A stretch of DNA of 52,183 nt from an uncultured archaeon (GTDB lineage: Archaea > Nanobdellota > Nanobdellia > Woesearchaeales > UBA583). Made by a program: the position numbers and the translations under genes. The DNA is taken from positions 1-52,183 of the forward strand of contig CAKZOW010000046.1 of the NCBI GenBank assembly GCA_937138345.1, in the 5' to 3' direction. Shown here piece by piece: positions 2,596 through 47,165 of this stretch. Positions within the stretch are counted from its first letter, which is position 1, and each line of letters starts with the position of its first letter. Under the pieces are notes generated by a model. The model was not told the DNA's origin and ran no database searches. It saw nothing but the letters and a program-made list of their open reading frames with translations.

Positions 2596-2616
2596 ACGAG
2601 CTATACGGGATTTGAA
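2596..2616 (-). repeat. Duplicated 3' end of tRNA-Lys (att-like)
   Basis: acgagctatacgggatttgaa is identical to 2690-2710 (21/21), the T-loop to discriminator segment of the tRNA. Confidence 0.9.
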
Positions 2617-2689
2617 AAACATCATTTTCTTTGAAAATGATTTTGTCAAAAATAGAATATTTTTGAGCACCGCGGAGCGGGTGAAAATA
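2617..2689. other. 73-bp insert with three consecutive hairpins between the tRNA 3'-end duplicates
   Basis: ATCATTTTC-TTT-GAAAATGAT (2621-2641), TCAAAAATA-GAA-TATTTTTGA (2646-2666), CACCGC-GGA-GCGGGTG (2668-2683, one bulge). Confidence 0.75.
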
Positions 2690-2690
2690 A

Positions 2691-2765
2691 CGAGCTATAC
2701 GGGATTTGAACCCGCGGCCTACGGATTAAGAGTCCGTCGCTCTAACCAGACTGAGCTAATAGCTC
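2691..2765 (-). tRNA. tRNA-Lys(CUU)
   Basis: Cloverleaf by eye: acceptor GAGCTAT/ATAGCTC, D arm GCTC..GAGC, anticodon arm ACGGA-CTCTTAA-TCCGT, T arm GCGGG-TTCAAAT-CCCGT, discriminator G, no encoded CCA. Confidence 0.95.
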
Positions 2766-4979: not shown

Positions 4980-7900
4980 CTAAAATAATAAATATAGTAA
5001 AATTATAATTAAACTTGCTCCTAATGATTTTATTCCTGAGACCGGGAATAAACTAGAATCCGTATTTGTATTTATTTCTTCTCTGACTACCATTATGGAA
5101 GGTAAACTTATTGAATTTGTATCATTATATACATCAACTCTAAAATAATGTGTTGAATTATCTGAAAAGAAATATGTAAAATTACATATACTTCCTGTTA
5201 CAGTATTAGTTGAGTTTAAATTATTATTTACAAATAAATTACACTCATCACCTGTAGTGTTAACTTGTATATTTAATGATGCTACTCCTGTTAAATCTAA
5301 ATTTAAACTAGTTGGACTGAGATAATCTGCATAAATACTATTTTCTGTAGGTAAAATAGAGATAAATATTTTTTCCGATCTATTTCTATATCCAAATGAC
5401 GATATTGCCTCTGTAAAAAAAGTAACATTTTGATAAGAAGAATTACCAGTAGTGAAAAGTGTCCAATTGAATTCGCAAGAATCACCAAACCTCATATTTT
5501 CATAACATGAAAAATTCTGAGGTGATAATGGGTTCTGATTTGTAGTATAAAATGGTTCTCCTGAATTCATAGGAACTAAACCTCCTTTTTGGTTTGGATT
5601 GGTCGAATAAATAAAACTTTTTTGTGATACATCTAATTCATCAAATGAAATAAAATAATTATAGTAATATTCGTTTGACAAACCTGAAGTGAAACCATAA
5701 TAACTCAGCGGTGCCACATTACCAAAGTTTATTTCAACATCTCCATTTTCATGTAATACTATTTCATTATCTATTGTTTCTGAAGAATAACCAAGCATGT
5801 TTACATTTTCATATCTAAATACAGCATATCTATTAGGTTCTGAACCTAAATTGGGACAGGAGTATAAATTCCCCGAACCTACTTCTAGATCACTCCAAAA
5901 ACTTGCTATAACATACTCATTTTCTATATTGGTTCCGTAATAGTTGTAAGATGAAGAAGGAGAAGTAACAATTCTTCCATTTGTATCCATGTAATATAGA
6001 GACCCTTCGGGATATGTTGTGTTAAAAAGAGAAAAATCAAAACCTAAACTTACACCAGGACATAATCCATCATCATTTCCATCTGGTACACAAAGAGTAT
6101 TGCAATTATAATAGTTATAATTGAATGAATCATTAATTATTGTGGTTGTATATTCATAATCACCTTGACTAATTGGATCTAATAAAAAAGTTACATTACC
6201 GCATTCTGCATCTAGGCAAGTCACATTTGAAATAAATTGAAATCTACTATTCTCCATTACATTGAGATCAGAAACTGGACTAATAAGCTGAACAAGTAAT
6301 GTTCCATAATCTACAAAAAATGATGAAATAAAATTTGCTGATGAAGATAAATTATCTTGACAGTTCACAATAATATCAAAATCACCCGAATCATTTATTG
6401 TAAAAGATAAAGAAGAAGTCTCCCAATAAGAATTATTCATGTTTTGTGATAAATTACTAAAATAATATTTATTATCATCATAATTGTATAATGAAACTGA
6501 ACTTGAAACTACGCTATTACCATTAGTGCTTGAACAAGAACTCCTAATACCATTTAATGTGTCATTAAACATTATTGAGTTACAATCCTCCCAATTTCCA
6601 GAATTAATACTACATTCAATTGAAGAATTCAAAATAATAGGTTTTGCAAAAGTTAATGGTAAATTATCAAAGTACCCGCCAAACCCTGGTATTGAAAAAG
6701 GAGAATCACATACCCCATCATAATTTAAATCTGAGCAATTTTCTGAGAAACTAGATGAATATGAACCTCCCCAGAAGTTACCTCCTATAAAATTACCACC
6801 CATGATATTTTTTTTCTGCAATAATGTTCTATTAAATTCTCCGTTAAAACCAAATCTATAAAAATTAGAAACATTAAAAAAATTATTATATATTGAAAAA
6901 TTATTACCTTGTAGTCTAATGTCTGAACCATTTATAAATTTATTTGAAAAAATTTCTGAATTATCACCCTCTAAAAATAAATCTGCTTTGGGTGTTGGCC
7001 TATCTATATAATAATAATCTTGATCCATATGATAAAAACGCTTGTTGTTAGTAAATATTGAATTTAATAAACTCAAATTATTTGAAGTGAAATCTTCATT
7101 ATATATACCGTAATGACCATTTTCAGTGAAGTTAGTAAAGTTAATTGATAAATTATTTGAACGTAATAAATGAAAACCGTCAAGATAATTATTATTAAAA
7201 TTTGAATTTTGAAAAATGTTATTGTGTGAATTGTCAATATAGGTTCCCCTGTAATTATTATTTGAAGTTATATTATTGAAAATATTATTATCCGAATTAA
7301 ATATATATAGACCTCCATTATTATTGATATTAGATAATATGGATAAATTGTTAAATGTTGCATCATCTACATCACACAAAATAACTTTATTTGATTCTAT
7401 ATTATTGTATACTTGTGACGAGTTTAAACTATTCATAAATACAACTTTCTCTGAATCAGTTAATGTTATATCGAATGTATGAGAACAAATATTTGAAGAA
7501 CCTAAGTTAATATTGTTTGAATTTCTAAAAACTGGGTAAAATAAGAAATCATCAAATTTATTGTCTCTAAAAAATGTATTTATTACAGTATTTGAATGTG
7601 AATTTTGTAGTCTTAAACCAAAAAAATTATTATCAGAAGTCACATTGTTAAATAATATTCTATCTGAATATGAAGAAAAAATACCATTATTTTTTATCAA
7701 TGGATTTCCCTTAATGGTTACATTTTCAATTATTGAGTCATCTGCGTTACATAGCAATAATATACCCAATTCTCTATTTATTATATTTACATTAGTATTA
7801 TAAAACTCAGCAGGATATCCTCCAGAAACTGTAACATTTGAAAGAGTGTGAGAACAGTGACCTGTCCAAATATTTGGATCAATTAATATATCAAAATATT

Positions 7901-8741
7901 GGCTATTTTCTACTAAAGAATCATATATTTGTAAATTTGAAGATTGGTCATAGTAAACACCAAAATATGCAGAATTATTTATAGATAAATTTCTAAATAC
8001 ATTGTTTTGTGAGTACCATGCGCTGATTCCATTAGAATCTGAATTTTTTATTTGGATATTTTCAAGGATATTATTATCACTATGAGTTATACTTATCGCT
8101 GCTCCAAAAGAAGATGATATATTCTCCAAATATACATTACGTATATTTACTGTTACGTCTGAATAAAAGAATGATAATCCGTCGTTTGAGTTAATAATCG
8201 TAATATTCTCATAATTTGAATTACTAGATTGTGGATGAAATTTATTATCAAAATTTTTACCATAAATATTTGAAATATTATTGTTCTCACCTCCCGAAGA
8301 ATAAAAGGTCGATCCTTCTAAAGTAATGTTGTCAATAATTGAGTTATAATGTATGTTAAACCTGTGCAAATTATTTCCACGAAGGGTTAAATTTTCAAAT
8401 CTTGAATTATTAAAGGAATATAAATCAACATCACCATCAAAAATACAATTATTAATTGATACATTATCCCTTAGAGTATTATTAATGTTTTCAAATATTC
8501 CATTATAATATGATGATGTAATAACATTATTTTCACAAGTAAGAGAAAAATTTGAAGTTTCAATATTAAAACATACATCATCACTAGGTGCATTAAATGA
8601 ATCTACAACAACTATTTTTCTATCCTCGTCTAATGTAGATTCAGAAATATTTATACAGGAAGAAATAGATATTTCTGAATAAAATAAAGGAAATATTATC
8701 ATTACTACTACAACTGTATATAAAATTTTTAGTTTATTCAT
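4980..8741 (-). CDS. Large right-handed parallel beta-helix surface protein with C-terminal TM
   Basis: Signal-like N-term, many Asn-rich NxxxNN.I..N turns (PbH1/NosD-like), C-term GASLIIILLYLLF. Confidence 0.8.
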   Translation of the reverse strand: MNKLKILYTVVVVMIIFPLFYSEISISSCINISESTLDEDRKIVVVDSFNAPSDDVCFNIETSNFSLTCENNVITSSYYNGIFENINNTLRDNVSINNCIFDGDVDLYSFNNSRFENLTLRGNNLHRFNIHYNSIIDNITLEGSTFYSSGGENNNISNIYGKNFDNKFHPQSSNSNYENITIINSNDGLSFFYSDVTVNIRNVYLENISSSFGAAISITHSDNNILENIQIKNSDSNGISAWYSQNNVFRNLSINNSAYFGVYYDQSSNLQIYDSLVENSQYFDILIDPNIWTGHCSHTLSNVTVSGGYPAEFYNTNVNIINRELGILLLCNADDSIIENVTIKGNPLIKNNGIFSSYSDRILFNNVTSDNNFFGLRLQNSHSNTVINTFFRDNKFDDFLFYPVFRNSNNINLGSSNICSHTFDITLTDSEKVVFMNSLNSSQVYNNIESNKVILCDVDDATFNNLSILSNINNNGGLYIFNSDNNIFNNITSNNNYRGTYIDNSHNNIFQNSNFNNNYLDGFHLLRSNNLSINFTNFTENGHYGIYNEDFTSNNLSLLNSIFTNNKRFYHMDQDYYYIDRPTPKADLFLEGDNSEIFSNKFINGSDIRLQGNNFSIYNNFFNVSNFYRFGFNGEFNRTLLQKKNIMGGNFIGGNFWGGSYSSSFSENCSDLNYDGVCDSPFSIPGFGGYFDNLPLTFAKPIILNSSIECSINSGNWEDCNSIMFNDTLNGIRSSCSSTNGNSVVSSSVSLYNYDDNKYYFSNLSQNMNNSYWETSSLSFTINDSGDFDIIVNCQDNLSSSANFISSFFVDYGTLLVQLISPVSDLNVMENSRFQFISNVTCLDAECGNVTFLLDPISQGDYEYTTTIINDSFNYNYYNCNTLCVPDGNDDGLCPGVSLGFDFSLFNTTYPEGSLYYMDTNGRIVTSPSSSYNYYGTNIENEYVIASFWSDLEVGSGNLYSCPNLGSEPNRYAVFRYENVNMLGYSSETIDNEIVLHENGDVEINFGNVAPLSYYGFTSGLSNEYYYNYFISFDELDVSQKSFIYSTNPNQKGGLVPMNSGEPFYTTNQNPLSPQNFSCYENMRFGDSCEFNWTLFTTGNSSYQNVTFFTEAISSFGYRNRSEKIFISILPTENSIYADYLSPTSLNLDLTGVASLNIQVNTTGDECNLFVNNNLNSTNTVTGSICNFTYFFSDNSTHYFRVDVYNDTNSISLPSIMVVREEINTNTDSSLFPVSGIKSLGASLIIILLYLLF

Positions 8742-8813: not shown

Positions 8814-8896
8814 CTTTGGGCTAAAGCTCAAAGTTCATATTCTCTCTCAAAAAACTCTCGTAAAAACTTTGCTCTTCCTGGACCAATTCCTCAAAC
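8814..8896 (-). pseudogene. Displaced second copy of the hef 3' end
   Basis: ~73/83 identity to 8974-9056 at a constant 160-bp offset; encodes GIGPGRAKFLREFFEREYEL*. Confidence 0.85.
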
Positions 8897-8987
8897 GATC
8901 TTTTTCTTTGCTATTCCTTGCGTAACTAAAGTTACTTAAGTCATTAAGAAAAAGCCTCACCAAAAGAACCATGCTTTGAGCTAAAGC

Positions 8988-11264
8988 TCAAAGTTGATAT
9001 TCACGGTCAAAGAACTCTCGTAAAAATTTTGCTCTACCTGGACCAATTCCTTGAACTTCGAGTAGTTCTTTTTCTGAGGCATTGATTAAGTCTTTGAGAG
9101 ATTTAAAATGACTAAGCAAACCTTTTGCATTAACAACATTGATTTTTGGAATTGAGGAGATGAACTTTTCCATTTCTTCATTTTCTGAGTGGGATTTTTT
9201 ATCTGAGACAAGTGAAATTTCTTTTTTATCTTTTTTAGTTCTTTTTGCAATTGTTCTTATCATCTGAGCTGTTTCTTGCATGTTATTTGTTACTATAATT
9301 GGTATTCTTAGATCAACTGCAATTGCACTAAGAGTTGCTCTTATTACATTTGGATTTAGATTTCTTAGAGTATAAATATTTTCTTCTCCTTCTAAAATTA
9401 GAATTGGTCTTCTAAAATTTCTTGCAAGATCCATGAGTTGAGGAAATAATCTTTTATCAATTATTGAATTTACAAAATCTATTTTTGCTTTTCTCTCAAT
9501 TGCAATATTTTCTGTAATTACAATATCTCCTACATCTAGTTGTTTTGAGTGAACTTCTAATTCGTCAATTGAGTAAATTTCTTTAATTAAATCGGTGTTT
9601 TCTCTTTGATCGACATAAATTGGTATTTTGGGATTTAATTGTTTTGAGAGATCAGATTCTTTTTCATTACTTGGTTGTTTAGATTCAATTATGTTTTTTT
9701 TATTGATATAATCTCCAAGACCTTTTTCTACTTTTTTATTTTCAAGTTTGTTAAAGTCTGATACTAATTTTTCAAGTGCTTTATACATTGACTTTTCTTT
9801 AGCATTTGCAACATGACGTGTTATCATATCTCTAGTTCCTAGCGATTGCAATATATATGCATTTCCCTCATTAAATCTTCCTGTTCTCCCAACTCTTTGA
9901 ATTGTTCTAATTGCTGAGGGAACGGGTTCATAAAATATAACTAAATCTACTTTTGGGATATCTAATCCTTCTTCACCAACTGATGTGGATACTAAAATAT
10001 TATGTTTTGCGTCACGGAAATTTTGAATTACTTCTTTTTGTTGTTTTTGAGATAGTTTAAATTCTCCTTTTTTTGCTTGGCCTACAAATAACACTGGATT
10101 GATATCTTCGATTTTTGAGAGTTCCTCAACAATTTTTTGAGCAGATTCTCTGTATTGATTAAAGACAATTATTTTTAGATCTTTGTTTTTATGTATTTCA
10201 AGAGCAATTATCTCCTTTAATTTCTGAAGTTTTGGATGTAGGATATTTTTTTCTTTGAGTGTTTTTATTTTACCATAGGCATCTCTAAAGTCAATATCAT
10301 ATGTGAGTGCTTCTGCTGCTTTTGATTTATCTCCACCTGATCTAAAAAAGTTATGGAAATATACATAGGCTGCAGCAATTTCTTGAGATTCAAAGAGTTC
10401 CTGGCCATAAGATAATTTCATAAGTGCTGCAGCAATTGAAATTGCAGCCCATACATTCTCATCTGCTTCACCTGAAGAAATTTTTGATCTAAGAGCTATC
10501 TGAATATCAAGTAAATCTTTTTTTGAGACTAGCGGTTTAGTTATTCCAATGTCGAGTTGTTTTAGTTCTTCTAACTTTGAATTATATACTTTTTGAAGTA
10601 AATCTTTTACTTCTACTAATTCTTTTCCAAGTTCAATTTCAATGTGTTTAATATTAGTTTTGTTTACATAGGGTTTTACATCTTCATCCTCGTACCTCTT
10701 TACTTCAATATGATTAATACATAAATTTGTCATTACTTCTCTAATTTGAGAAATATTTGTTCCCGGTGATGCAGTTAGTGCTAAAATTTTCGTATAAGCT
10801 TTATCAAATTCTTGTGCAATAAATCCATAAGCATAATTACCTGTTCCTCTATGTGCTTCATCTATTATTACTAATCCAAAATCTTTTGGATCTAGAACCC
10901 TATTAATAATATCGTTTTCTATGAGTTGAGGTGTTGAAAAGATAAAATCTTGCTCTTTGTAGAGAAGAGCTCTTTTTTTTGGAGATACTAAACCAGTTAA
11001 TACTTGAAAATTAAACTCTTCTGAGTTTTCATAGAAATTTTCAAATGATACTTTTTGTTGTTCAACTAAAGGTTTTGTTGGTGCTAGAAATAAAATTTTT
11101 TTATTATTAGAATTGAAATAATATGTTGCAAGCATTAGTGCGATTACTGTTTTACCTAAACCTGTTGGAAGTACAACTAAGGAATTTTTATTTAAAGAAT
11201 TTGCAAAAATAGATTGTTGGTAACTACGAGGTGCAAAGTCTTTAACTAGTTGGACTTGTTTCAT
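8988..11264 (-). CDS. hef: Hef-type helicase/nuclease (SF2 helicase, ERCC4-type nuclease, HhH)
   Basis: PTGLGKTVIA, IIDEAHRGTGNYAY, QRVGRTGR, YVDQREN...IAIERKAKIDFVNSI, C-terminal VQGIGPGRAKFL HhH. Start chosen at MKQVQLVKDF, not the extended ORF start at 11342. Confidence 0.95.
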   Translation of the reverse strand: MKQVQLVKDFAPRSYQQSIFANSLNKNSLVVLPTGLGKTVIALMLATYYFNSNNKKILFLAPTKPLVEQQKVSFENFYENSEEFNFQVLTGLVSPKKRALLYKEQDFIFSTPQLIENDIINRVLDPKDFGLVIIDEAHRGTGNYAYGFIAQEFDKAYTKILALTASPGTNISQIREVMTNLCINHIEVKRYEDEDVKPYVNKTNIKHIEIELGKELVEVKDLLQKVYNSKLEELKQLDIGITKPLVSKKDLLDIQIALRSKISSGEADENVWAAISIAAALMKLSYGQELFESQEIAAAYVYFHNFFRSGGDKSKAAEALTYDIDFRDAYGKIKTLKEKNILHPKLQKLKEIIALEIHKNKDLKIIVFNQYRESAQKIVEELSKIEDINPVLFVGQAKKGEFKLSQKQQKEVIQNFRDAKHNILVSTSVGEEGLDIPKVDLVIFYEPVPSAIRTIQRVGRTGRFNEGNAYILQSLGTRDMITRHVANAKEKSMYKALEKLVSDFNKLENKKVEKGLGDYINKKNIIESKQPSNEKESDLSKQLNPKIPIYVDQRENTDLIKEIYSIDELEVHSKQLDVGDIVITENIAIERKAKIDFVNSIIDKRLFPQLMDLARNFRRPILILEGEENIYTLRNLNPNVIRATLSAIAVDLRIPIIVTNNMQETAQMIRTIAKRTKKDKKEISLVSDKKSHSENEEMEKFISSIPKINVVNAKGLLSHFKSLKDLINASEKELLEVQGIGPGRAKFLREFFDREYQL

Positions 11265-11289
11265 AATTAAAATAGGTAAAGTTACTTTA

Positions 11290-11319
11290 TAAAAGAAATG
11301 TCTAAAAAAGGTAGAAAAA
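11290..11319 (+). repeat. 30-bp perfect direct repeat, copy 1
   Basis: taaaagaaatgtctaaaaaaggtagaaaaa identical to 11385-11414. Confidence 0.95.
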
Positions 11320-11384
11320 ATGAAGCTTGAGTTACAAAGCATACGAAACTTCAGCTGTGTAAAGGTTCAGCAGAAGTTTCTGAG
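11320..11384. other. 65-bp hairpin insert between 30-bp repeats
   Basis: GAAACTTCAGCTG(N10)CAGCAGAAGTTTC inverted repeat (12/13); shares agCTTGAG..AAAGC..GAAACT..GTGT and TTCAGCAGAAGTT with 25391-25494. Confidence 0.8.
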
Positions 11385-11414
11385 TAAAAGAAATGTCTAA
11401 AAAAGGTAGAAAAA
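11385..11414 (+). repeat. 30-bp perfect direct repeat, copy 2
   Basis: Identical to 11290-11319; abuts the stop codon of the lipoprotein gene. Confidence 0.95.
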
Positions 11415-19973: not shown

Positions 19974-22250
19974 CTATTTTCTATGATATCTCATTCTAAT
20001 TAAAACACCTAAGATAATTAATGTAATAATTAGAACTATTGGAACAATATTTATTGATGACTCTTGAGTATTTTCAATAGGATGAATGTGCTCAATTACT
20101 TCTTTTTCAATTAAATAAGAACCATTTTCATCTTGTAGTGCGAGGTATGTTTTTTGTGAATTTTGAGAAGTTATCAACAATTCACTCCTGTTTAATTCAC
20201 CTAAATAATATGAAGAATTTATTGATAAATCTTTATTTGAGATGAATTTACCATAGGAATCCCTTTTGATAATAATTTCTTCTTTTTCATCATCATAACT
20301 TTGGTCTTGAACACTAGTATCTATTTGTTTTATGACATCACATTCTTTTTTCTCAATGGAATTACTAAAACAGTTATTTTTATCAGTTATTTCTCTTAAA
20401 GAGTATCCATTACTACACTGAGTCCAATTAGAATATTGATAATCAGGTTTGCATGAAGATTCATCAAAGTTATTTACTGGGCGTTCATTATTATTTTCTT
20501 GAGCATATACAACAACATCCTCTTCTTGAATCACATCATCCCTATCATTTTGTGAATCTGAAGGACTATCACTATCATTGTTTCCTGTATCATTATCCAC
20601 CTCAGTTCCACCACCATTATCCGGATTAGTTGTTTCATCTCCTGGACCTGAATCATCAGGACTATCATCTTCAATTACATCTATTGTAATTTCTTCTGAT
20701 GAGATTAGATACTCTTCATTTCCAACACATTCTAAAATAAACACGGCATCTCTTGTTAGAGGACCTAATGATACTTCACCTGTTAGTGTTTTGGATCCAC
20801 TCCAATCTCTTTTTGCCTCACAAGATTGAGCATTAGTTACACCCCAAGATAATGTTATCTTACCTCCTGAAATAATTTGAGTAGTATTGCTTGAAAAAGT
20901 AATTTCTGGATATACAAAATTACCTATTTCATCAACATCAAATTCATATGCCCCAATATCTGGATATGTATCTCTTATAAAACCATTAAAATCATTAGCA
21001 ACCTGTGTTTGACTTCCTTGATCAATTAATTGGGTTGCTTCAGGAACTAGTTCAAAATTTAATGCTGAACTATCTCTGAAAATATCTGTTGTTTCAATAA
21101 TAATATTGTTTTCCAAAACATTATCATCCTGATTTGCCCCACCTCTAAAATTAATTACATCATATGATCCTCTTTTACCATATACAATATTATTTTTTAT
21201 CGTATTTTCAATAGAGTAATCATAGACTATATCAATTGCTGATTTATCTGGAGTTTCAATATATACTGTATTATGATATACTTGAGTATCATATGATCTC
21301 TCTAATGCAATACCACTATCAGTTAATCTATTAGGCAAATCACTATAAATAACATTATTTCTAATTGTACCACCTATGTTTTGAAGAGGACCCGAACTTA
21401 ATCCAAAATCGAGATAATCTTGTCTGATATATTCTCTAGCACCTGAACTTGCCCCAAGTCCAAAACCAATACCTCTTGCATTATTAATTATAAAATTTCT
21501 CTCAACAATTACGTCTTCTGTATTTTGCCAAAGATGAATAGCATGTTCTGCCATAGCTGGAGCTCTATTTTCGCAATAAATATTTTCAACAACATTATCA
21601 TGGATATTCCATCTCCAACTATCATGCATATCAATTCCTCCAGTATAACATGCTGCATTTCCTCCGTGATTTCTAACATTAGATCTACCTGATGCAGTTA
21701 ATTCCATTTTTGAACAACTAATTCTTCCAAAATTATTTCCAGCATTCCCTTCACCAAAGTCATGTTTATTAATTTTAATTAATTGCTCTCTACCATCGAT
21801 GATATGCATATCATGAATTAAAGTATTGTCTGAACCTTTAATATGAATTGGGTGATATGTGAACCTCTTTATTGTAAAACCAATAAGCTCAATATTGTTT
21901 CCAATTATTTCAATACCATATGTTGAATAAGCACCATCTAGAATCACATTTTCTCTAATTCCTGATTGAGACCTTAGTGTGATATCATTTTTATGTATTC
22001 TAATTTTTCCAATAGATGATATATCATATGTTCCATCTTCAAAAATAATTGTAGTATTTTCTTGTGCATTATCAATAATAGTTTGTAGATTTGACGCATC
22101 ACTAGGACTTACAATAATTTGATTGTGATGGTCTTTAATTTCAAAATTAAGTTCTGAACATAGAGGATTGATTGGATAAATTTCTTCTTGAGAATATGAA
22201 CTTCCAACTAATGAGAATATAATCATAATTAGAATACTAAAATGTTTCAT
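19974..22250 (-). CDS. Parallel beta-helix surface protein with Ig-like and WxxC/TSP1-like C-terminal modules, TM anchor
   Basis: Beta-helix domain (ITLRSQSGIRENVILDG...), WTQCSNGYSLREITDKNNC, C-term IVPIVLIITLIILGVLIRMRYHRK. Confidence 0.85.
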   Translation of the reverse strand: MKHFSILIMIIFSLVGSSYSQEEIYPINPLCSELNFEIKDHHNQIIVSPSDASNLQTIIDNAQENTTIIFEDGTYDISSIGKIRIHKNDITLRSQSGIRENVILDGAYSTYGIEIIGNNIELIGFTIKRFTYHPIHIKGSDNTLIHDMHIIDGREQLIKINKHDFGEGNAGNNFGRISCSKMELTASGRSNVRNHGGNAACYTGGIDMHDSWRWNIHDNVVENIYCENRAPAMAEHAIHLWQNTEDVIVERNFIINNARGIGFGLGASSGAREYIRQDYLDFGLSSGPLQNIGGTIRNNVIYSDLPNRLTDSGIALERSYDTQVYHNTVYIETPDKSAIDIVYDYSIENTIKNNIVYGKRGSYDVINFRGGANQDDNVLENNIIIETTDIFRDSSALNFELVPEATQLIDQGSQTQVANDFNGFIRDTYPDIGAYEFDVDEIGNFVYPEITFSSNTTQIISGGKITLSWGVTNAQSCEAKRDWSGSKTLTGEVSLGPLTRDAVFILECVGNEEYLISSEEITIDVIEDDSPDDSGPGDETTNPDNGGGTEVDNDTGNNDSDSPSDSQNDRDDVIQEEDVVVYAQENNNERPVNNFDESSCKPDYQYSNWTQCSNGYSLREITDKNNCFSNSIEKKECDVIKQIDTSVQDQSYDDEKEEIIIKRDSYGKFISNKDLSINSSYYLGELNRSELLITSQNSQKTYLALQDENGSYLIEKEVIEHIHPIENTQESSINIVPIVLIITLIILGVLIRMRYHRK

Positions 22251-25364: not shown

Positions 25365-25390
25365 TAATGCATTACTTTGGTAGAATTAAT
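25365..25390 (+). repeat. 26-bp perfect direct repeat, copy 1
   Basis: taatgcattactttggtagaattaat identical to 25495-25520. Confidence 0.95.
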
Positions 25391-25494
25391 AGAGCTTGAG
25401 CAAAGCGAAACTCTAGTTGTGTCTACTCAAAAATCCGAGATTTTTGGTCGAATAATGAATTATTCAAAGCTTCAGCAGAAGTTGATTAGAACAC
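25391..25494. other. 104-bp palindrome-rich insert between 26-bp repeats
   Basis: CAAAAATC-CGA-GATTTTTG (25428-25446), GAATAA-TGAA-TTATTC (25450-25465); shares motifs with the 11320-11384 insert. Confidence 0.8.
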
Positions 25495-25520
25495 TAATGC
25501 ATTACTTTGGTAGAATTAAT
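25495..25520 (+). repeat. 26-bp perfect direct repeat, copy 2
   Basis: Identical to 25365-25390. Confidence 0.95.
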
Positions 25521-25553: not shown

Positions 25554-26579
25554 TCAAAATTTATCTTTAAAATATTCTGGAATTAGTATTGATGGAATTT
25601 TATCTGATGGAAGGGGTTTTGAGATGTAATACCCTTGAATAGAATTAAATCTCCTATTATTAAATTCTAATACTCTTAGAAAATCTAATTGTTCTTTTGA
25701 CTCAACACCCTCAACTACTGTTTTTAGATTATAATTTGAACTATAATGAAGAAAATCATTAAAGATCCTTGGGTCCCATACAGTATTATGAGACATTAAA
25801 TGAACTGGAATTTGAGAAGTTTGTTCTCTATCAATTTTTAAGTAATCAAAAACATTAGACTTGAGTGTATTAATATTGTGGGAACCATTACCATAATCAT
25901 CTATTGATAATTTGTGACCTCTTTGTTTTATTTGGTATAAGATAGGTAAAATCTCTTCAAATGAGATTCTCTCGTCAATAGACCCTGCAGTATCTCTTTC
26001 AATGAGTTCTAATTCAAACATTTCTCTAGGTACTCCATATTTTTCACTGATTTTTTCAATATGATCTAGAAGAGTACTTGAAGTAGTCATATCGCTAGTA
26101 TATGAAGAATAATTTGGATTAGAATTAGTGCCTAGTGCAGCTCTATTTCTTGAAACTAATTGTTCTCTAGTTACATTAATTGAACATGGTACAAGTTTAG
26201 CCCCACCTTCTTTCCACATTTTCATATCTCTTGCTGCTTGTTCAAATAAATAATCTCCTAAATCTACTATAAGTTTACTTCTCTCACAAAATTCAATGAA
26301 AAAATATGGGCTTATTAATTCATCCTCTATTTTTAATCTCACTAATGCTTCAAGACCTGTTACTTCTCCTACTGAATTAGGTTCAATTGATACTTTTGGT
26401 TGATATTCTAATACAAATCTATCTTCTTTTAAACTAGTTAAAATAATATCTCTTTTCTCAACTAAAAATGGGTCATCAAATATATTTTTAGACTTTGAAT
26501 TAGAAAATATTGATTTAATATCATTTGGTGTACATCCTATAATACTTGAAGATAAATCATCATTACTAGTTCTTCTCAT
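25554..26579 (-). CDS. EAL-domain protein (candidate cyclic-di-GMP phosphodiesterase)
   Basis: EALVRLK, SINVTREQL, ELELIERD, LSIDDYGNGSHNINTLKSNVFDYLKIDRE, VVEGVESKEQLDFL, QGYYISKPLP match EAL motif order. Confidence 0.88.
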   Translation of the reverse strand: MRRTSNDDLSSSIIGCTPNDIKSIFSNSKSKNIFDDPFLVEKRDIILTSLKEDRFVLEYQPKVSIEPNSVGEVTGLEALVRLKIEDELISPYFFIEFCERSKLIVDLGDYLFEQAARDMKMWKEGGAKLVPCSINVTREQLVSRNRAALGTNSNPNYSSYTSDMTTSSTLLDHIEKISEKYGVPREMFELELIERDTAGSIDERISFEEILPILYQIKQRGHKLSIDDYGNGSHNINTLKSNVFDYLKIDREQTSQIPVHLMSHNTVWDPRIFNDFLHYSSNYNLKTVVEGVESKEQLDFLRVLEFNNRRFNSIQGYYISKPLPSDKIPSILIPEYFKDKF

Positions 26580-28760: not shown

Positions 28761-31442
28761 TTATTTTTTTCTTAATTTATTATATGCAATAAGAACTACA
28801 ATACCTACTATTGAAATTATTAAAAGTAAGTTAGTATGTGAGATAGAAGAACTTTCTTCTGAGATTATTTCTTCATCACTTTTATTTTCTGAAGATGATG
28901 AGAGTTGAGTTACTTTATAGACATCTTCTCCAAGTGATTCTTCTTTTTCAAGAAGATACTCTTGTTGTGTATCTGAATGAGTTACATAAATTTCTTCGTT
29001 AGTTAAAGAGGTATTTATTGAGAGATATTTACCATTATATTTACTTAAATCATAATTTGTTGTAAACTCATCTATATTATCGAGTTGAGTTAGATTTAAA
29101 TTAACACTTTCTTTATCTGAAGAGATATCACTTATATTTGTATTTGTTTTTTGATAACCACATTCTACTTTCTCAATATATGGTGAGATACAAGAATTTT
29201 TATCTTCAACTTCTCTTAATTGATAATTATTTGAACATTGAGTCCATTCTCCATAAATAAGATTAGATTTGCAATTTGGATCTGAATTAATATAATTATT
29301 AGCATTTGAAGATTTTTGAGAATCTTGAGATGATGTAGTATATCTTTCATCTATCTCTTCGTCAGTTAAAATTCCTTCGTCAGGTCTTTGAGGATTTGAA
29401 TCCTCCTCATCATCACCATAAATTACTCTGAAATTTTGTGATGTAGTCACAACTTCATCTTCATTAAAGAGTACAAGATATATTGTTTGAAGACCTTCTT
29501 CATTTACATTAATTTCAATAGTTCCCGATGATTGTGTAATTTCTGTAGTACTTATCTCTTCATTATTGAGAAATACTTTTATTTCATCATAAGGATCAGT
29601 TCCATCAATTTCATATTCTAAAAGAAATGTTCTTGAAACTTCATTTCCATCCTGAGGTGATAAGATTTCAATTGTTAAGTCACTTGAATCTATTTCTTCA
29701 ACTAATACACTTACTAAATGAGAAGTCTGTGTGTCATCTTCACCAAAACATGTTAATGTGTAGGTACTCGTAATATAAATTGGCGAGATTTCTTGAGATC
29801 CGCTAATTTCTTTTTCTCCATCCCAATTACCTGAGGCACTACATGATTGAGCGTACTGTGACTCCCAAGAGAGCATAACTGCACCGCCTGGTTGTATTAA
29901 ACTCTGATTTACATCAAATGTAATTACTGGAAAAATTGCTTCATCATCTTCATTAAATTCAAAAGCCCCAACATCTAATTGTGAATAAATGCTTCTTTGT
30001 TTTGATGAGAGATCATAGACATATTCATAGAGTGGAAATAAACTATATCCAAACCCTTTTCCTGGATTAATTCCAGCATTTATTGCAGAGGAACTCCCTT
30101 TTAGAAAGTATTGATAAGAACTTGGATTAGTTAATTCTTCATCAGTAATATAGAGATTATTTTCAATTTGAGTAACATCTGATGCATCTCCGCTTTTATA
30201 TTCAATTAATTTTGACTCATCTAAATTTACAAAAAGATTGTTGATAATCTTTACTTCTGAAATATCTTTGTAGTTATAGAGTTTAATTGCTTTAACCCCT
30301 GAAGTTTTTTTATTATCAACTATTGTATTTCCTGAGATATAGAGTTTTTGAATATCATTGTCTGCAGAATTTGCTTCAGATGAATAATCAATTATACCTG
30401 AATTTGCTGAATTTGGTCCTTGTTCTATAACATTACCAATAATATAGGTTAAACCTCCTTGTGGAATATTTATGTTATATGAGGATACAGCTGATTCATC
30501 AGTTAATCTATTATATAAAATATAATTTTCAATTGCTCTTGATTTTAATAGATGACCATGGTGTTTAACATTATGGGAATAGGAATTTTTCAATATGAAA
30601 ACAAATGCACTAGTCATGTAAATATTATGAGTTAAACCTATAGCACCATTTGTTTTTATTGCACCACTATCTTTAAATTCTGAGCTATCGATGATGAGAT
30701 ACTTTCTTTCATTTCCACTAACTCCAACATTTGAGGATAAAATTCCCATCTCATTATTTTCAAATAATGAATTTTTAATAATTGAAACTCCTGTTGATTC
30801 TAATCTAATTCCAGCTCCATTTCTATCATTTACTTTTGCACCCTTAAAATGAATATTATCAAAAATGATATTTTCTCCTTGAGGTACAAGAATTGCTTTT
30901 CCATTTGATATAGAACATCCTGTAGCATCTAAAATTGGTTTAGAATCTCCTACCCCTCTAATAGTTAAATTATCTTGGTTAAATACTTTTATATCACAAG
31001 TATATGTACCTGAATCAATTTCAATAATATCATTATCATTTGCAGAGGATAATGCAGAAGATAATGTTGTAAATTCTTTATTTTCACCAACTTGTAGAGT
31101 AGAACCTTGTGGAAATGTAGGAATTATTTTAGCTTCAATTATTAGAGATTTTGAAGACGTACCATCACTACATTCAATTTCATAAAATGTATTCTTATCA
31201 ACACTTGCAATTGCATATTCTCCAGATAGAGCAATTTCTCCCGAAATACCTTGTTTACCTGTACAGGAAGTAGCTTGATTTGATTCCCAAACAAGTTTCA
31301 TTGATTCTCCTTGTTCTACTAAAGGAGGTACTAACGCCATTTCAACATCTAAACCATAAACTGCTGAAGATAGAAAAATAACTAATAATAAGTTAATACT
31401 AAATACTATTGCTTTAAGTTGTTTCATCATTACATGCCCCAC
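28761..31442 (-). CDS. Parallel beta-helix surface protein with Ig-like and WxxC/TSP1-like modules, TM anchor
   Basis: Beta-helix core, YGEWTQCSNNYQLREVEDKNSC module, C-term TM plus KLRKK. Confidence 0.85.
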   Translation of the reverse strand: MGHVMMKQLKAIVFSINLLLVIFLSSAVYGLDVEMALVPPLVEQGESMKLVWESNQATSCTGKQGISGEIALSGEYAIASVDKNTFYEIECSDGTSSKSLIIEAKIIPTFPQGSTLQVGENKEFTTLSSALSSANDNDIIEIDSGTYTCDIKVFNQDNLTIRGVGDSKPILDATGCSISNGKAILVPQGENIIFDNIHFKGAKVNDRNGAGIRLESTGVSIIKNSLFENNEMGILSSNVGVSGNERKYLIIDSSEFKDSGAIKTNGAIGLTHNIYMTSAFVFILKNSYSHNVKHHGHLLKSRAIENYILYNRLTDESAVSSYNINIPQGGLTYIIGNVIEQGPNSANSGIIDYSSEANSADNDIQKLYISGNTIVDNKKTSGVKAIKLYNYKDISEVKIINNLFVNLDESKLIEYKSGDASDVTQIENNLYITDEELTNPSSYQYFLKGSSSAINAGINPGKGFGYSLFPLYEYVYDLSSKQRSIYSQLDVGAFEFNEDDEAIFPVITFDVNQSLIQPGGAVMLSWESQYAQSCSASGNWDGEKEISGSQEISPIYITSTYTLTCFGEDDTQTSHLVSVLVEEIDSSDLTIEILSPQDGNEVSRTFLLEYEIDGTDPYDEIKVFLNNEEISTTEITQSSGTIEINVNEEGLQTIYLVLFNEDEVVTTSQNFRVIYGDDEEDSNPQRPDEGILTDEEIDERYTTSSQDSQKSSNANNYINSDPNCKSNLIYGEWTQCSNNYQLREVEDKNSCISPYIEKVECGYQKTNTNISDISSDKESVNLNLTQLDNIDEFTTNYDLSKYNGKYLSINTSLTNEEIYVTHSDTQQEYLLEKEESLGEDVYKVTQLSSSSENKSDEEIISEESSSISHTNLLLIISIVGIVVLIAYNKLRKK

Positions 31443-41456: not shown

Positions 41457-44400
41457 ATGGAAACAATAGAAAATATACTTGGAATGATTGTTCTTGTCAT
41501 TTTTATTTTGACAATTGGACTTTTTGTATATACAAATAATTTTGTATCAATTACGTCATCTTATGAAGGAGAGGAACAAAAATTCCTCTATACTACACAC
41601 TCAAATTCTTTTGACACTCTTTTGTTGCTTCACGATAATTCTTCACAATTAAGTCTTAGTGAACTAACCTCTCTTGCTGCTTTTGAAGAAAGTGAAGTAA
41701 TTAATAATTCAGGAGTTATTATCAATATCACTGATGAATACATACGATACCTAGATCAAATTTATGGAAGAAATAATTATTATGTGTCAATTAAACCAAA
41801 AGTTGCTGATGTGAGTTTAAATTTTGTAATAGATGGAAGTTCAACACTTCAAGATGAAAGGGAGAGGCTTGCAACTGAATTGCCGACATTACTATCTAAA
41901 ATTAAAACTCAAAATTATATCAATGGTGAAGAAAAAATCATTGCAAATGTTTTCATATTGGGTAAAAAAGAAGAATCTTCTGAATCTAAATGTACTCTTT
42001 TTGATGAGCTCTACAATGCAGAGATTACCTGTACTCTTTTAGATCATGTTGACTTATATCAAAGACCTGAGGTAGTTGAAGGTATTGAAACAACTGATTT
42101 TAATAATTATAAAATTGAGTACAATATTGAAGCACCTTATGGATCTAGAGAATCACAGGTACATTCTGTTAGAGGAGATGGGAATATTAAAGATTATTAT
42201 GAAGCAGATTGGGGGAATGGAGTTGCCTATGTTTCTGCATTATCTAAAGATACTGCAAGACTTGTATTGATTTTTCCTATGAGTGATGAGCTCTCAACTT
42301 CCTCAATATCTGAGGCATGTTTTACTCCGACACTTTTAGGTAAAAATAAAAATGAAGGATTTAGAGAACAAAAGGTTTGTGATTTTTGTAAAAAATCATG
42401 TGAAGATCCAAATTCTCCTTCTATTGTTAGAGCTTATGAAACTATTGAAAATGGTGCACTTGTTGCCAAAGATAATGGGCATGTTGTTTACCCTATTTTT
42501 GCTTATGATTGTGACTATCCATATAATACTGTTACATTTAATGGATATTTTGATTATGTTTTTGGAAATGGTATCCCTAGCTCTACTGCATGTAATGAAG
42601 ATGTATGTGGGGGTTGTAGTGAAGACTTATCTCAAAATGTCTGCTTTCACCCTGAATGTGAGACATATATTTTAGATCATATGGAATATCTTGCTAATGA
42701 AACTTCTGGAAGAGTTATTGATTTAGATGATTTAGATGAGTTAATTAGATCTGTTGAAGAAGGTGTGAAAACTACATTAAATTCTTTTGAACATACAATT
42801 GGAATTAAACAAAATAGATCTAAGTTTGTTTATCAAAGATCTCTGGTAATGGATAATAAGTTATTTACAGATATTACTTTGGAAGTTTATTATGATATCT
42901 CAGATATCGATCAAGAACTCTATGATGAATATCTAGAGTTAATTGAATCGCAGAGATTAGATTTACAGCCACCTATTTTTTCAATAACAAGTCATTCTCA
43001 AAGAGAAGTTGTAATTGATCCTTATGTTTCTATCTCGGGTATTGCTACTGATAAAAATGGAGTCTCAGATATTTCTTATTTTTGTACTTATGGTTGTTCT
43101 GGTTCTGGAATTGCCAATGGAACAAATCCTTTTTCAATTGATTCATTAGAATTAACACTGGGAGATAATTATATTTTATTTATAGTTCAAGATCTCTCAA
43201 ATCAATCAAATACTTTAGAGTATGAGTTAATACTTACATATCTTCCACCTCTTGGAGGGTGTGATGATATTCATGTTCACTGTATTGGAGAAGGATATGA
43301 GTTTGAGAGTATTGCTCTAGCCTTAGCTAATGGGAGTGGGGGTGACGAATTTAGAATTTATGAAGGTGAATATTATGTTGATGAAATTCATTATATTAAA
43401 CCTAATTTAGCTGGAACTGCTGGAAGACCTACTACATTTATTGGTATTGGAGATGTTGTCCTTGATGGTTCTGGGTTACAAAGAAATAATGGTAATGCAG
43501 TATTTTTTTTAGATGGTTTTTATGATTCAGATACCGATACAATGACAAAGAATAAGTATTTGCACTTTGAAAATTTAGAATTTAAAAATTCAGGATATAG
43601 AGATTTTAGAGTAGATGAGAGTACTCATGTTACATTTAAAAATATTAGATCTTTTGGAGCATATCAAAATTCCATTTTCTCTTCATTTTCAAGCCATATA
43701 ACTATTGAAGATTCATATTTTGATACAACTTATGGAGAACATTGTGTTTATTTAAGTAATTCTGGAGATTATTACACAATTAGAAATAATATATTTAAAA
43801 ACTGTGATAAATCTGGATTTCAAATAAATGCTGATCCTGATGCAACCTATTGTAGAGGATTTACATTTGGACCTGATGAACCATTTTGTGATGGGGTTAG
43901 TGAACATGCTATTTTTGAAAATAATAAAATATACGGAGCTAGTGGAAGAGGTGGAGCTGGAGTTAATTTAGCATCAGTTAGACATAGCCTTTTTCAAAAT
44001 AATATTATTTTTGAAAATTTTGCAGGAGGAATTGTTGCATGGGATGGTGGATATGGTATAGAATATGGTTCTGATAATAATACATTTAGACATAATACTA
44101 TTTATTTTAAAGCAAACGAAGGAAGATCAGCATTTCAGGTTGTTAAAGGAAGTGATCAAAATAAGATTTACAATAATATATTACTTAGTGGAAAAGATAT
44201 TGGGAAAGAATATGGAGCTATTGAATTTGATTCAACAACAATTGATACACAATCATTGATTACAAATAATATTTATTATAGAAATGGAAACTCCCATGTA
44301 ATTACTAATAAAGAAGTTCAGGAGTTCACATTAGCAGAATTTAATGCTATTTCTGAGTATGAAGATAATTCTACTTCTCTTACTACCCTTAATGGATTAT

Positions 44401-47165
44401 TTGAATCATTACTTGATAACACTTTTGTTCTCTTAGAAACTTCTCCAGCATTAGATGCGGGAATTCCTAATTCATTATACTATGACCATAGTGGAAATTC
44501 TAGGCCAAGAGATTTAGGATATGATATTGGGGCTTTAGAAAAATCTCTTAGTAAATCTTATCCAATTAGCCCTACTTGTGATGAGATTATCATAACTGAT
44601 CATCCACTAAGTACAATTATTACAGTAGGTCCTGAAAATGCAAGTAATTTAGTTTCAATTATTAATAATGCTGAACCTTATACTACAATTTATTTAAAAG
44701 ATGGTTTTTATGATATTCAACATCAAGGTAATATTTTAATTGAATCAGAACATATAACTATTAGATCTGAATCTGGAAATAGAGATTCAGTTATTATTGA
44801 TTCTAATTATAAGGTATATGGATTTAGAGTTGCTGCAGATGATTTTACTCTTGCAGATCTTACAATAAAGAGATTTGCATATCACCCAATTCATATTCAA
44901 GGTAGAGACAATGCAAGATTACACAATATTGCAGTATTTGATGGTGGAGAACAATTTGTAAAGATTAATTCTCATCCTTATGATGGTGTTAGAGAATTCT
45001 CAGATAATGGAACTGTTAGTTGTTCTCATTTTGAATTAACTCCTTCTGGTTCTGCAAATGTTAGAGCCTCAATTGGACCTGGATCTTGTTATACTGGAGG
45101 TATTGATATGCATGCTGGTTGGAATTGGAAGTTTCATGATAGTGTTTACAAAGATATATATTGTAGAAATAGGCCTGGATTAGCAGAACATGCTATTCAT
45201 CTTTGGAGAAATGGAAAAGATAATATTATTGAGAGAAATATCTTAATTAATAATGGAAGGTCTATTGGATTAGGTCTCTACCCTGGAAATGGAAGGAGAG
45301 ATTTTCTGCCTGGAGATTTAGATGGAACAACCTATACTAAAGCAGAAGTTGAACATGTTGGTGGGGTTATTAGAAATAATATTATTTATACAAATATTGG
45401 TAAAAAAGCTGAGAGTGGTATTTCTTTAGAAGGTGCTTATGAATCCCAAGTGTATCACAATACTATTTATATGATTGGGTCAAATAGGGTTCCTATTGAT
45501 TCAGTTTATGAGAGTACTAAAAAAAATACTATTATGAATAATCTATATTATGAAAATCACCAATGGCAAGAAGGAATTAATTTTAGAAACCAAGCAGAAC
45601 TTGAGAAAAATACTGTAGAGAATAATATTTTTATTGATGATACTTCTATTTTTAAAGACTTTAGTAATTTGAATTTTGAATTAAGCTCTAGTGCTTCTAA
45701 TAGTATTGATCAAGGTATTTTTACTGGAACAACTCATGATTTTAATAATTTTCAAAGAGACCAAATCCCTGATGTAGGTGCTTATGAATATGGAAGTGAA
45801 AAAGAAGAAATAACACCTCCACCAGTTATTCCTGAAGAACCTCCTGAGGACGACCAAAATGGCGATACTACAACATTACAGTTATGTAGAGAAATTACAA
45901 CAATTGAAGACAATAAAAATCCAATCAAAGAAATTTTTATTTCTCCTCAAGGTGATGATACTAATGGAGATGGTAGTCAAACAAACCCGTATAAAACATT
46001 TTCTAAAGCTAGTTTAGAATTAACGGCAGGGAGTGCTTTAAGACTACTTCCTGGAACCTATTCAAATATGGCTTGGTTTTCATTTTTAGATCTTGTAGGA
46101 ACTCAAGAAAACCCAATTTGGATTGGTGGATATGACTCTGAGAATAAGCCCGTTATTTCTGGTGGTTTAGAGCCTATTAAAATTGAGAAATTTAATTATT
46201 TAATACTTCATGATATGATACTTAAAAACAATGTAAGAAATGCAATTAACTTGGAAGATGGATCCCAATATGCCAATGAAACTGCTGCATCTCATGTATT
46301 AATTAGAGATGTGACTGTGGAAAACCTGGTGAAATATGGAAGTGAAACTACATCAAATTGTGTAAAAATTTCAGGTGTTAGAAATTTTGCGATAATAAAT
46401 AGCAAATTTAAAGATTGTAGTAGTTCTAGTCCAAGTGGAAGTACAGCAATAGATGGTGTTGGAGTTCATAATGGTTTAATCTACAATAATTCTTTTGATA
46501 ATATGCCATTAGTTGGAGTTCAATTTAAAGGAGGTTCAGAAAATATTGAAGTTATAGGAAATATTTTTAATGGGTTTGGAGATCGAGCAATTCAAGCTGG
46601 AGGTTATACTGGAGATTCATTTTTTAGAAAACCTCTAAGTACAACAAAACCTAATTTTGAAGCTAGAAATATTTCAATACTTGGTAATTTCTTTGAAAAT
46701 ATTGATACTCCGCTATCATTTACTGGAAGTGTAGATGTTACTGTTGAATACAATACTTTTGTTGATTTTAATAATTACCTTGCAAGAATTGTTAAAGAAA
46801 AACAATCAGATTCAACATATACATTTTATGACACCCAAAATGGAACAATTAAGCATAATATTGTATATTTTGATAGTAGTATTTATTCAATACTCAATAT
46901 TGGTTCTAATACTAATTCATCTTCATTTTTATTTGAAAATAATCTTTGGTATAATTACAATAATCCATCACAGACTATTTCAAAATTAAATGGTATTGAA
47001 AGTAGAGAAGTTAATGGAATCTATGCAAATGATCCTAAGTTCATCTCAGCTAGTTCAAATAATTATTATCTGGAATCTTCTTCACCTGCATATAAATCAA
47101 GTACAGGGATTTCTCGTGATTTTATGTGCCATACAGATACTCCCAATATTGGAGCATTTCAATAA
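41457..47165 (+). CDS. Giant (1902 aa) pilin-like/vWA-like/multi-beta-helix surface protein
   Basis: N-term TM; DVSLNFVIDGSSTLQDERERL (DxSxT MIDAS-like); three successive beta-helix blocks, the second paralogous to 19974-22250. Confidence 0.8.
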   Translation: METIENILGMIVLVIFILTIGLFVYTNNFVSITSSYEGEEQKFLYTTHSNSFDTLLLLHDNSSQLSLSELTSLAAFEESEVINNSGVIINITDEYIRYLDQIYGRNNYYVSIKPKVADVSLNFVIDGSSTLQDERERLATELPTLLSKIKTQNYINGEEKIIANVFILGKKEESSESKCTLFDELYNAEITCTLLDHVDLYQRPEVVEGIETTDFNNYKIEYNIEAPYGSRESQVHSVRGDGNIKDYYEADWGNGVAYVSALSKDTARLVLIFPMSDELSTSSISEACFTPTLLGKNKNEGFREQKVCDFCKKSCEDPNSPSIVRAYETIENGALVAKDNGHVVYPIFAYDCDYPYNTVTFNGYFDYVFGNGIPSSTACNEDVCGGCSEDLSQNVCFHPECETYILDHMEYLANETSGRVIDLDDLDELIRSVEEGVKTTLNSFEHTIGIKQNRSKFVYQRSLVMDNKLFTDITLEVYYDISDIDQELYDEYLELIESQRLDLQPPIFSITSHSQREVVIDPYVSISGIATDKNGVSDISYFCTYGCSGSGIANGTNPFSIDSLELTLGDNYILFIVQDLSNQSNTLEYELILTYLPPLGGCDDIHVHCIGEGYEFESIALALANGSGGDEFRIYEGEYYVDEIHYIKPNLAGTAGRPTTFIGIGDVVLDGSGLQRNNGNAVFFLDGFYDSDTDTMTKNKYLHFENLEFKNSGYRDFRVDESTHVTFKNIRSFGAYQNSIFSSFSSHITIEDSYFDTTYGEHCVYLSNSGDYYTIRNNIFKNCDKSGFQINADPDATYCRGFTFGPDEPFCDGVSEHAIFENNKIYGASGRGGAGVNLASVRHSLFQNNIIFENFAGGIVAWDGGYGIEYGSDNNTFRHNTIYFKANEGRSAFQVVKGSDQNKIYNNILLSGKDIGKEYGAIEFDSTTIDTQSLITNNIYYRNGNSHVITNKEVQEFTLAEFNAISEYEDNSTSLTTLNGLFESLLDNTFVLLETSPALDAGIPNSLYYDHSGNSRPRDLGYDIGALEKSLSKSYPISPTCDEIIITDHPLSTIITVGPENASNLVSIINNAEPYTTIYLKDGFYDIQHQGNILIESEHITIRSESGNRDSVIIDSNYKVYGFRVAADDFTLADLTIKRFAYHPIHIQGRDNARLHNIAVFDGGEQFVKINSHPYDGVREFSDNGTVSCSHFELTPSGSANVRASIGPGSCYTGGIDMHAGWNWKFHDSVYKDIYCRNRPGLAEHAIHLWRNGKDNIIERNILINNGRSIGLGLYPGNGRRDFLPGDLDGTTYTKAEVEHVGGVIRNNIIYTNIGKKAESGISLEGAYESQVYHNTIYMIGSNRVPIDSVYESTKKNTIMNNLYYENHQWQEGINFRNQAELEKNTVENNIFIDDTSIFKDFSNLNFELSSSASNSIDQGIFTGTTHDFNNFQRDQIPDVGAYEYGSEKEEITPPPVIPEEPPEDDQNGDTTTLQLCREITTIEDNKNPIKEIFISPQGDDTNGDGSQTNPYKTFSKASLELTAGSALRLLPGTYSNMAWFSFLDLVGTQENPIWIGGYDSENKPVISGGLEPIKIEKFNYLILHDMILKNNVRNAINLEDGSQYANETAASHVLIRDVTVENLVKYGSETTSNCVKISGVRNFAIINSKFKDCSSSSPSGSTAIDGVGVHNGLIYNNSFDNMPLVGVQFKGGSENIEVIGNIFNGFGDRAIQAGGYTGDSFFRKPLSTTKPNFEARNISILGNFFENIDTPLSFTGSVDVTVEYNTFVDFNNYLARIVKEKQSDSTYTFYDTQNGTIKHNIVYFDSSIYSILNIGSNTNSSSFLFENNLWYNYNNPSQTISKLNGIESREVNGIYANDPKFISASSNNYYLESSSPAYKSSTGISRDFMCHTDTPNIGAFQ

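Follow-up and report, generated by a model that had tools for sequence, protein, structure and literature searches.

Hairpin elements behind tRNA genes of a woesearchaeal archaeon and the duplicated tRNA tails that flank them

Casposons, whose casposase is a solo Cas1 and which are known from Methanosarcina mazei and Aciduliprofundum boonei, target the 3′ end of tRNA genes, leave 14-15 bp duplications and can occur as tandem insertions (PMC6977970, PMC6563490); the M. mazei casposon duplicates the final 4 bp of the tRNA together with the next 10 bp (PMC6977970). Insertion sequences of the IS1634/IS1549 group are flanked by direct repeats of variable length (8-514 bp) for which there is no mechanistic model (PMC2266710). 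Mitochondria have tiny mobile palindromes of their own, the GC clusters and double-hairpin elements, whose duplications are AG or ACT and whose movement is unexplained (PMC4478555).

The locus described here lies in a stretch of 52,183 nucleotides (the window) from the 1.8 Mb genome of an uncultured archaeon of the order Woesearchaeales, denoted G000. A 73-bp hairpin insert separates two copies of the 3′ end of a tRNA-Lys(CTT) gene, and this insert is one member of a genome-wide class rather than a unique locus. Among the papers searched, none describes such a hairpin-insert/tRNA-tail arrangement.

The tRNA-Lys(CTT) locus

The sequence-only reading of the window had reported a perfect 21-bp duplication, 94 bp apart, at the 3′ end of tRNA-Lys, and both exact plus-strand copies of ACGAGCTATACGGGATTTGAA were confirmed at that start-to-start distance (Table 1). 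The probability that a given 21-mer returns by chance inside 500 bp is ~1e-10. ARAGORN placed the tRNA gene at 2690-2766 of the minus strand, and the Rfam tRNA model matched 2691-2765 with 73.6 bits. Along the tRNA strand the repeat reads TTCAAATCCCGTATAGCTCGT and comprises T54-T60, the 3′ strand of the T-stem, the 3′ strand of the acceptor stem, the discriminator G73 and a single trailer T; its extent had been given as T-loop to discriminator, which is right for all of these parts except the trailer T and so one base short.

The insert had been described as three hairpins with no ORF. Three hairpins are present, two of them A+T-rich and strong and the third, G+C-rich, weaker: it is weak in the minimum-energy folds of both 2595-2690 and the insert alone. 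RNA folding of 2595-2690 gave z = -4.0 and beat 200 of 200 shuffles, and the 73-bp insert alone gave z = -3.1. The absence of genes was borne out, the sole listed ORF through the insert being a spurious plus-strand frame of 64 aa that crosses tRNA-Lys antisense. In an Rfam search of the window, tRNA was the only RNA family matched, with no family for the hairpin insert. A tRNA intron in the T-loop was considered and dropped; the tail before the insert is intact whereas copies beyond it decay, which puts the insert outside the gene.

Table 1 Features of the tRNA-Lys(CTT) locus and of three further candidate insertion events in the window
Feature	Position	Strand	Basis or remark
tRNA-Lys(CTT) gene, intact	2691..2765	-	ARAGORN, Rfam tRNA model
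First duplication copy, T54 to G73 plus trailer T, inside the functional tRNA-Lys	2690..2710	-	Sequence
Inserted 73-bp hairpin element, family A	2617..2689	-	Relatives behind tRNA-Leu, tRNA-Thr, tRNA-Met and a partial tRNA (C161)
G+C-rich hairpin, CACCCGCTCCGCGGTG on the tRNA strand	2668..2683	-	Sequence; weak in minimum-energy folds
A+T-rich hairpin TCAAAAATATTCTATTTTTGA	2646..2666	-	Folding; 22-bp copy also at G000:C90:22532
A+T-rich hairpin ATCATTTTCAAAGAAAATGAT	2621..2641	-	Sequence, folding
Second (relic) copy of the tRNA-Lys 3′ end	2596..2616	-	Exact repeat
Left 26-bp copy, candidate event at 25365	25365..25390		Insert 25391-25494, intergenic
Right 26-bp copy, candidate event at 25365	25495..25520		Direct-repeat scan
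Relic copy of the 3′ end of a Hef/XPF-like helicase-nuclease gene, 88% identical over 83 bp	8814..8896	-	Insert 8897-8973, RNA z = -2.6
Functional 3′ end of the Hef/XPF-like gene, stop at 8988, other 83-bp copy	8974..9056	-	Repeat comparison
41-bp duplication, 90% identical to 11374-11414, 5′ region of the Hef/XPF-like gene; possibly the same kind of event	11279..11319		Insert 11320-11373, z = -0.1, no significant fold
Other copy of the 41-bp duplication	11374..11414		Repeat comparison

Element families, occupancy and duplication boundaries

A search of G000 for the hairpin unit beside other tRNAs, a check that the sequence-only reading had proposed, located it behind tRNA-Leu(GAG) (88% identity), tRNA-Thr(GGT) and others, and in each case the element copy is followed by the 3′ end of its own host tRNA. 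Among all tRNA genes recovered from G000, units of ~75-160 bp lie behind Lys, Leu (two in tandem), Thr, Met, Cys (two), Trp, Pro, Arg (two genes), Ser (two genes) and Glu. They form the related, modular groups A, B and D. Group A comprises the Lys unit of the window and those behind Leu, Thr, Met and the partial tRNA on contig C161. Group B, with the motif GCAAGAACG..AGTGTCTGGYAT, lies behind Arg, Trp, Pro and Cys and, inverted, behind two Ser tRNAs and Glu, so that it occurs in both orientations. Group D (GGATTTGAAC..CAAATCC) is found behind Leu and Cys. Terminal inverted repeats are weak, D units ending in GGATTTG/CAAATCC and family A having no clear repeats, and the element ends are constant only approximately. 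Tandem units resemble a repeat-spacer-repeat series with the tRNA tail in the role of the repeat; second tail copies decay, for example at tRNA-Met. Elsewhere in the genome, locus L279 (G000:C102, 5861-6237) packs B-type and terminator-like hairpins into a dense nested array in which several direct repeats of 20-55 bp overlap. A tRNA cluster at 41.6-58.6 kb of the 128-kb contig G000:C117 (L020, L026, L037, L043) has a T-loop of a different style (GGTTCGA) and no tail copies, and could be a virus or an assembly contaminant.

Occupancy was scored by seeking the last 14 nt of each tRNA, with at most 2 mismatches, 20-500 bp downstream. Tail copies followed 9/36 tRNAs in G000, 11/30 and 6/37 in two genomes of the same genus, and 2/31 and 11/36 in two of the same order (the last being G030). 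The corresponding upstream search gave 0 in all five genomes and mispaired tRNA tails gave ~1%, from which it follows that the downstream copies are one-sided and not due to chance. The phenomenon is thus at least order-wide. The occupied tRNAs differ between relatives, with the exception of tRNA-Ser(GGA), which has a unit in 5/5 genomes checked. Conservation of repeat and hairpins at tRNA-Lys in distant relatives had been named beforehand as the mark of a fixed processing or termination structure; tRNA-Lys(CTT) is instead vacant in four same-genus relatives (G002, G003, G004 and G005), a comparison between species. These empty sites, together with the 88%-identical element behind other tRNAs, sustain the earlier insertion reading, and on sequence comparison the tRNA-Lys unit is best read as an inserted repeat, not a fixed terminator. 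At one further locus (L289, G004:C13, 16733-16960) the 3′-end case is mirrored: 46 bp from the 5′ half of a tRNA are repeated upstream of the gene, and a B-type insert separates the two.

The boundaries of the duplications were surveyed in 54 tail copies, of which the row C7:2191 is a neighbouring tRNA gene and is to be discounted. On the left, identity to the tRNA ends at or before T54 in all but 2/54 copies, and the junction in the T-loop goes with the family: 53|54 for A and inverted B, 55|56 for D and 58|59 for B. On the right, identity ends 0-2 nt beyond position 73 in 31/54 copies and 16-33 nt into the trailer in a few. The length at tRNA sites is 16-21 bp in many copies and up to ~55 bp in others; the duplicated part includes the genomic trailer base and has no CCA. 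Copies carry the T-loop variant of their own host (TTCAAAT, TTCAATT, TTCGAGT or TTCGAAT). Because the duplication follows the acceptor stem and T-loop variant of the host tRNA, it is made locally and stays with the tRNA rather than the element, instead of being an att core that the element brought along.

D-type units extend beyond the genus. Their alignment fold is a three-way junction with 2 compensatory pairs (seven sequences, one of them from G063, a member of another family of the same order), which lends modest support to a selected structure, whether as RNA or as single-stranded DNA. Considered as H/ACA guides, the D units had no consistent pocket when judged by eye. Two identical D-type units stand in tandem behind a tRNA-Ser of G063 (L311, G063:C12, 1501-1656; contig positions 29280-29435), which suggests recent expansion or slippage. 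A phylum-wide scan for the D pattern matched 15/380 genomes, most of them probably by chance; the clear tRNA-linked matches outside the own genus were in G063 and G258. A pattern scan over genome contigs gave 20 matches, 4 of them in a single same-genus MAG, the remainder presumably being chance.

Inserts with duplications also occur away from tRNAs. In ~435 kb of the G000 genome, a scan for exact direct repeats with a minimum length of 16 bp and a distance of 40-320 bp found 47 pairs vs 0 in a Markov control. The 47 pairs cluster to 31 events in 435 kb; unrelated genomes gave 3 events in 112 kb, and part of the count is therefore ordinary background. Some of the pairs are coding tandem repeats and many are hairpin inserts with long duplications, such as an exact 29-bp duplication around a 39-bp single B hairpin (C14:19188) and another, also exact and of 29 bp, around a 32-bp hairpin (C58:19540). 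Further duplications affect the start of an nrdR-like gene and the end of an SRP54-like gene (C109), both genes being named from sequence reading; the latter resembles a 79-bp tandem duplication with a hairpin within the second copy. At protein-gene ends generally, hairpin inserts are flanked by duplications of 16-83 bp, and one copy of the gene end was intact in the cases examined, as would be expected if survival is limited to harmless insertions.

Three further candidate events lie inside the window itself (Table 1). The one at 25365-25520 is a perfect 26-bp repeat around a 104-bp insert between uvrA-like and EAL genes, its strongest hairpin being CTCAAAAATC..GATTTTTGG. The Hef/XPF-type helicase-nuclease gene (8988-11342, minus strand) has flanking duplications with short inserts both at its 3′ end and in its 5′ region. 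The product of the EAL gene (25554-26579, minus strand) is 341 aa long and has a complete EAL domain (Pfam E 3e-35), a cyclic-di-GMP phosphodiesterase-type fold that was unexpected in a small-genome archaeon. The window also encodes very long, repeat-rich predicted surface proteins that are right-handed beta-helix-like (4980-8741, 19974-22250, 28761-31442 and 41457-47165).

Routes of insertion and the search for an enzyme

The same element is present in different tRNAs, the duplications are local, relatives are vacant, both orientations occur and the preference for the 3′ end is strong. The 73-bp unit is probably, in our view, one copy from a family of mobile hairpin elements that are small and gene-less, resemble MITEs or REPs and prefer tRNA 3′ ends. 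Such an element would insert preferentially at the 3′ end of a tRNA gene, with one joint inside the T-loop and a second that falls either immediately beyond the tRNA 3′ end or as far as ~40 bp into the trailer. Fill-in of a wide staggered cut would then duplicate the interval between the joints, the first copy preserving the tRNA and the second being a relic free to decay. The same process may act, less often, where protein genes begin or end, leaving duplications of 16-83 bp. We infer both the movement step and the enzyme, which would be supplied in trans to a transposition-like reaction. Speaking against this reading are the failure to find a mobilising enzyme, the varying length of the duplication, 16-83 bp, unlike that of most transposases, the weak terminal inverted repeats and only roughly constant element ends, and the SRP54-like case with its tandem duplication.

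Candidate enzymes were sought with profile searches in genomes that are partly fragmented, G000 being 95% and G030 100% complete, and absences are to be read on that basis. Cas1 (PF01867) had no match in G000 or G030, and a casposon was rejected for G000; among 41 genomes it was matched only in G002, G004 and G029. The Cas1 genes of G004 and G029 have CRISPR neighbours, and in the stretches seen none of the three has a casposon neighbourhood. The one in G002 (L074, G002:C10, 1489-2691) encodes a 400-aa protein and adjoins a gene for a type I restriction-like protein, with no CRISPR array or other cas genes within 3.9 kb. Y1_Tnp was absent from G000 and four same-genus relatives and present in G017 and G030, and neither RVT_1 nor DDE_Tnp_1 (PF01609) was matched in G000, G004, G025 or G030. 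Tyrosine recombinases (PF00589) numbered four in G000 and none in G030, despite 11/36 affected tRNAs in the latter. Among the five genomes surveyed, no tested enzyme family tracks the occurrence of tail copies. Downstream of G000 tRNAs, where stretches of up to 20 kb were examined, there was likewise no larger element with such flanking copies, and among viral contigs none carried the element patterns or was related. It is possible that the enzyme is of an unrecognised kind or is missing from the assembly.

The main rival of transposition-like insertion is replication template switching (FoSTeS/MMBIR-like), in which a stalled polymerase would leave the tRNA or gene end, copy a hairpin elsewhere, re-anneal upstream in the T-loop and recopy the gene end, so that a tandem duplication would arise with a templated hairpin at its junction. 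The variable duplication lengths and the lack of a known enzyme in G000 fit this route, and it would also accommodate modular, shuffled elements, the T-loop-like sequence that element ends often have (GGATTTGAAC/CAAATCC) and the SRP54 event, with its tandem duplication and internal hairpin. It fits less well with T-loop junctions that are reproducible within each family and with the one-sidedness of the tail test (zero upstream events in five genomes), and the D structure has been conserved across families of the order; we regard template switching as unlikely, if deserving of serious weight. Considerably less credit goes to RNA-mediated insertion, by which a structured element RNA or a tRNA-primed copy would be reverse-transcribed at the tRNA locus, its junctions set by tRNA 3′ ends and modified T-loop bases. 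Of the two junctions, one does lie immediately beyond the tRNA 3′ end and its partner within the T-loop, next to position 58 in several families, and the element strands are strongly structured. This route seems improbable in the light of the unmatched RVT_1 in G000, G004, G025 and G030, of a duplicated part that includes a genomic trailer base and no CCA, and of targets other than tRNAs.

A processing, termination or guide-RNA structure fixed by selection would explain the position downstream of tRNAs, the strong folds and the Ser(GGA) unit found in every genome checked. It is nevertheless very improbable, since tRNA-Lys(CTT) is occupied in G000 only, occupancy per tRNA differs between relatives, units lie also at protein genes, and second copies decay (tRNA-Met). 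Least probable of all, and scarcely credible in our judgement, is a remnant or satellite of tyrosine-recombinase integration into tRNA genes, with the duplication as attL/attR. The block from T-loop to 3′ end does resemble att cores and G000 has its four PF00589 proteins, but the same element is found in different tRNAs and then next to different acceptor stems, its orientation varies, G030 is affected with PF00589 unmatched, and neither a large flanked element up to 20 kb downstream of G000 tRNAs nor related viral contigs were found. The earlier description of the locus as the classic footprint of tRNA-targeted integration was not supported: one family occupies several tRNAs, the duplication matches each host tRNA, and the same architecture recurs at protein-gene ends. 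A classic att footprint or virus remnant was rejected, given a core that varies by tRNA, no large flanked element in the up to 20 kb examined and no related viral contigs.

Comparison with described mobile elements

If the hairpin units are mobile elements inserted in a transposition-like way, several consequences follow. A small genome may hold many insertions at essential tRNA genes harmlessly, because every insertion rebuilds the tRNA tail. Short elements with defined junctions at the T-loop and 3′ end, present at many sites, offer a clean, testable system in which to look for a new mechanism of insertion, in a group for which none of the recombinase and transposase families tested fits. 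Repeats of tRNA tails in such archaea should not in themselves be taken as evidence of integrated viruses or plasmids. We raise, tentatively and as somewhat short of an even prospect, the wider idea of an undescribed DPANN mobility system in which gene-less hairpins land at the tRNA T-arm, via an unrecognised enzyme or host replication, and build CRISPR-like arrays of tRNA tails.

The resemblance to CRISPR arrays lies in the repeat-spacer-repeat look of tandem units; here, however, the spacers are recurrent hairpin families, the repeats are tRNA tails, and no Cas genes are needed. Casposons share the extreme 3′ end of tRNA genes as target, and a duplication results there too; with the hairpin elements, however, the duplication is variable and extends from the T-loop to slightly beyond the 3′ end, and G000 is without Cas1. 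REP/BIME sequences, associated with RAYT, share the extragenic palindromes, the modular arrays and the occurrence in both orientations (family B here), but Y1_Tnp is absent in the five same-genus genomes searched and long target duplications are not known from REP insertion. The long, variable direct repeats recall the IS1634/IS1549 group, which consists of autonomous insertion sequences, unlike the hairpin elements, which have no transposase, prefer tRNAs and occur where DDE_Tnp_1 is absent (G000, G004, G030). Mitochondrial GC clusters are similarly tiny, mobile and palindromic, but are organellar and have short duplications without a duplicated tRNA tail. No compared system combines gene-less hairpins, duplication of the tRNA tail and absence of a known enzyme.

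Like MITEs, the hairpin elements are small, gene-less, multicopy and dispersed and are flanked by a target-site duplication; an autonomous partner with the same ends was absent from the parts scanned, namely up to 20 kb downstream of G000 tRNAs and the viral contigs. By likeness rather than by membership of a transposon family, they may be placed among non-autonomous mobile hairpin elements, as a further form that would work in the manner of a MITE.
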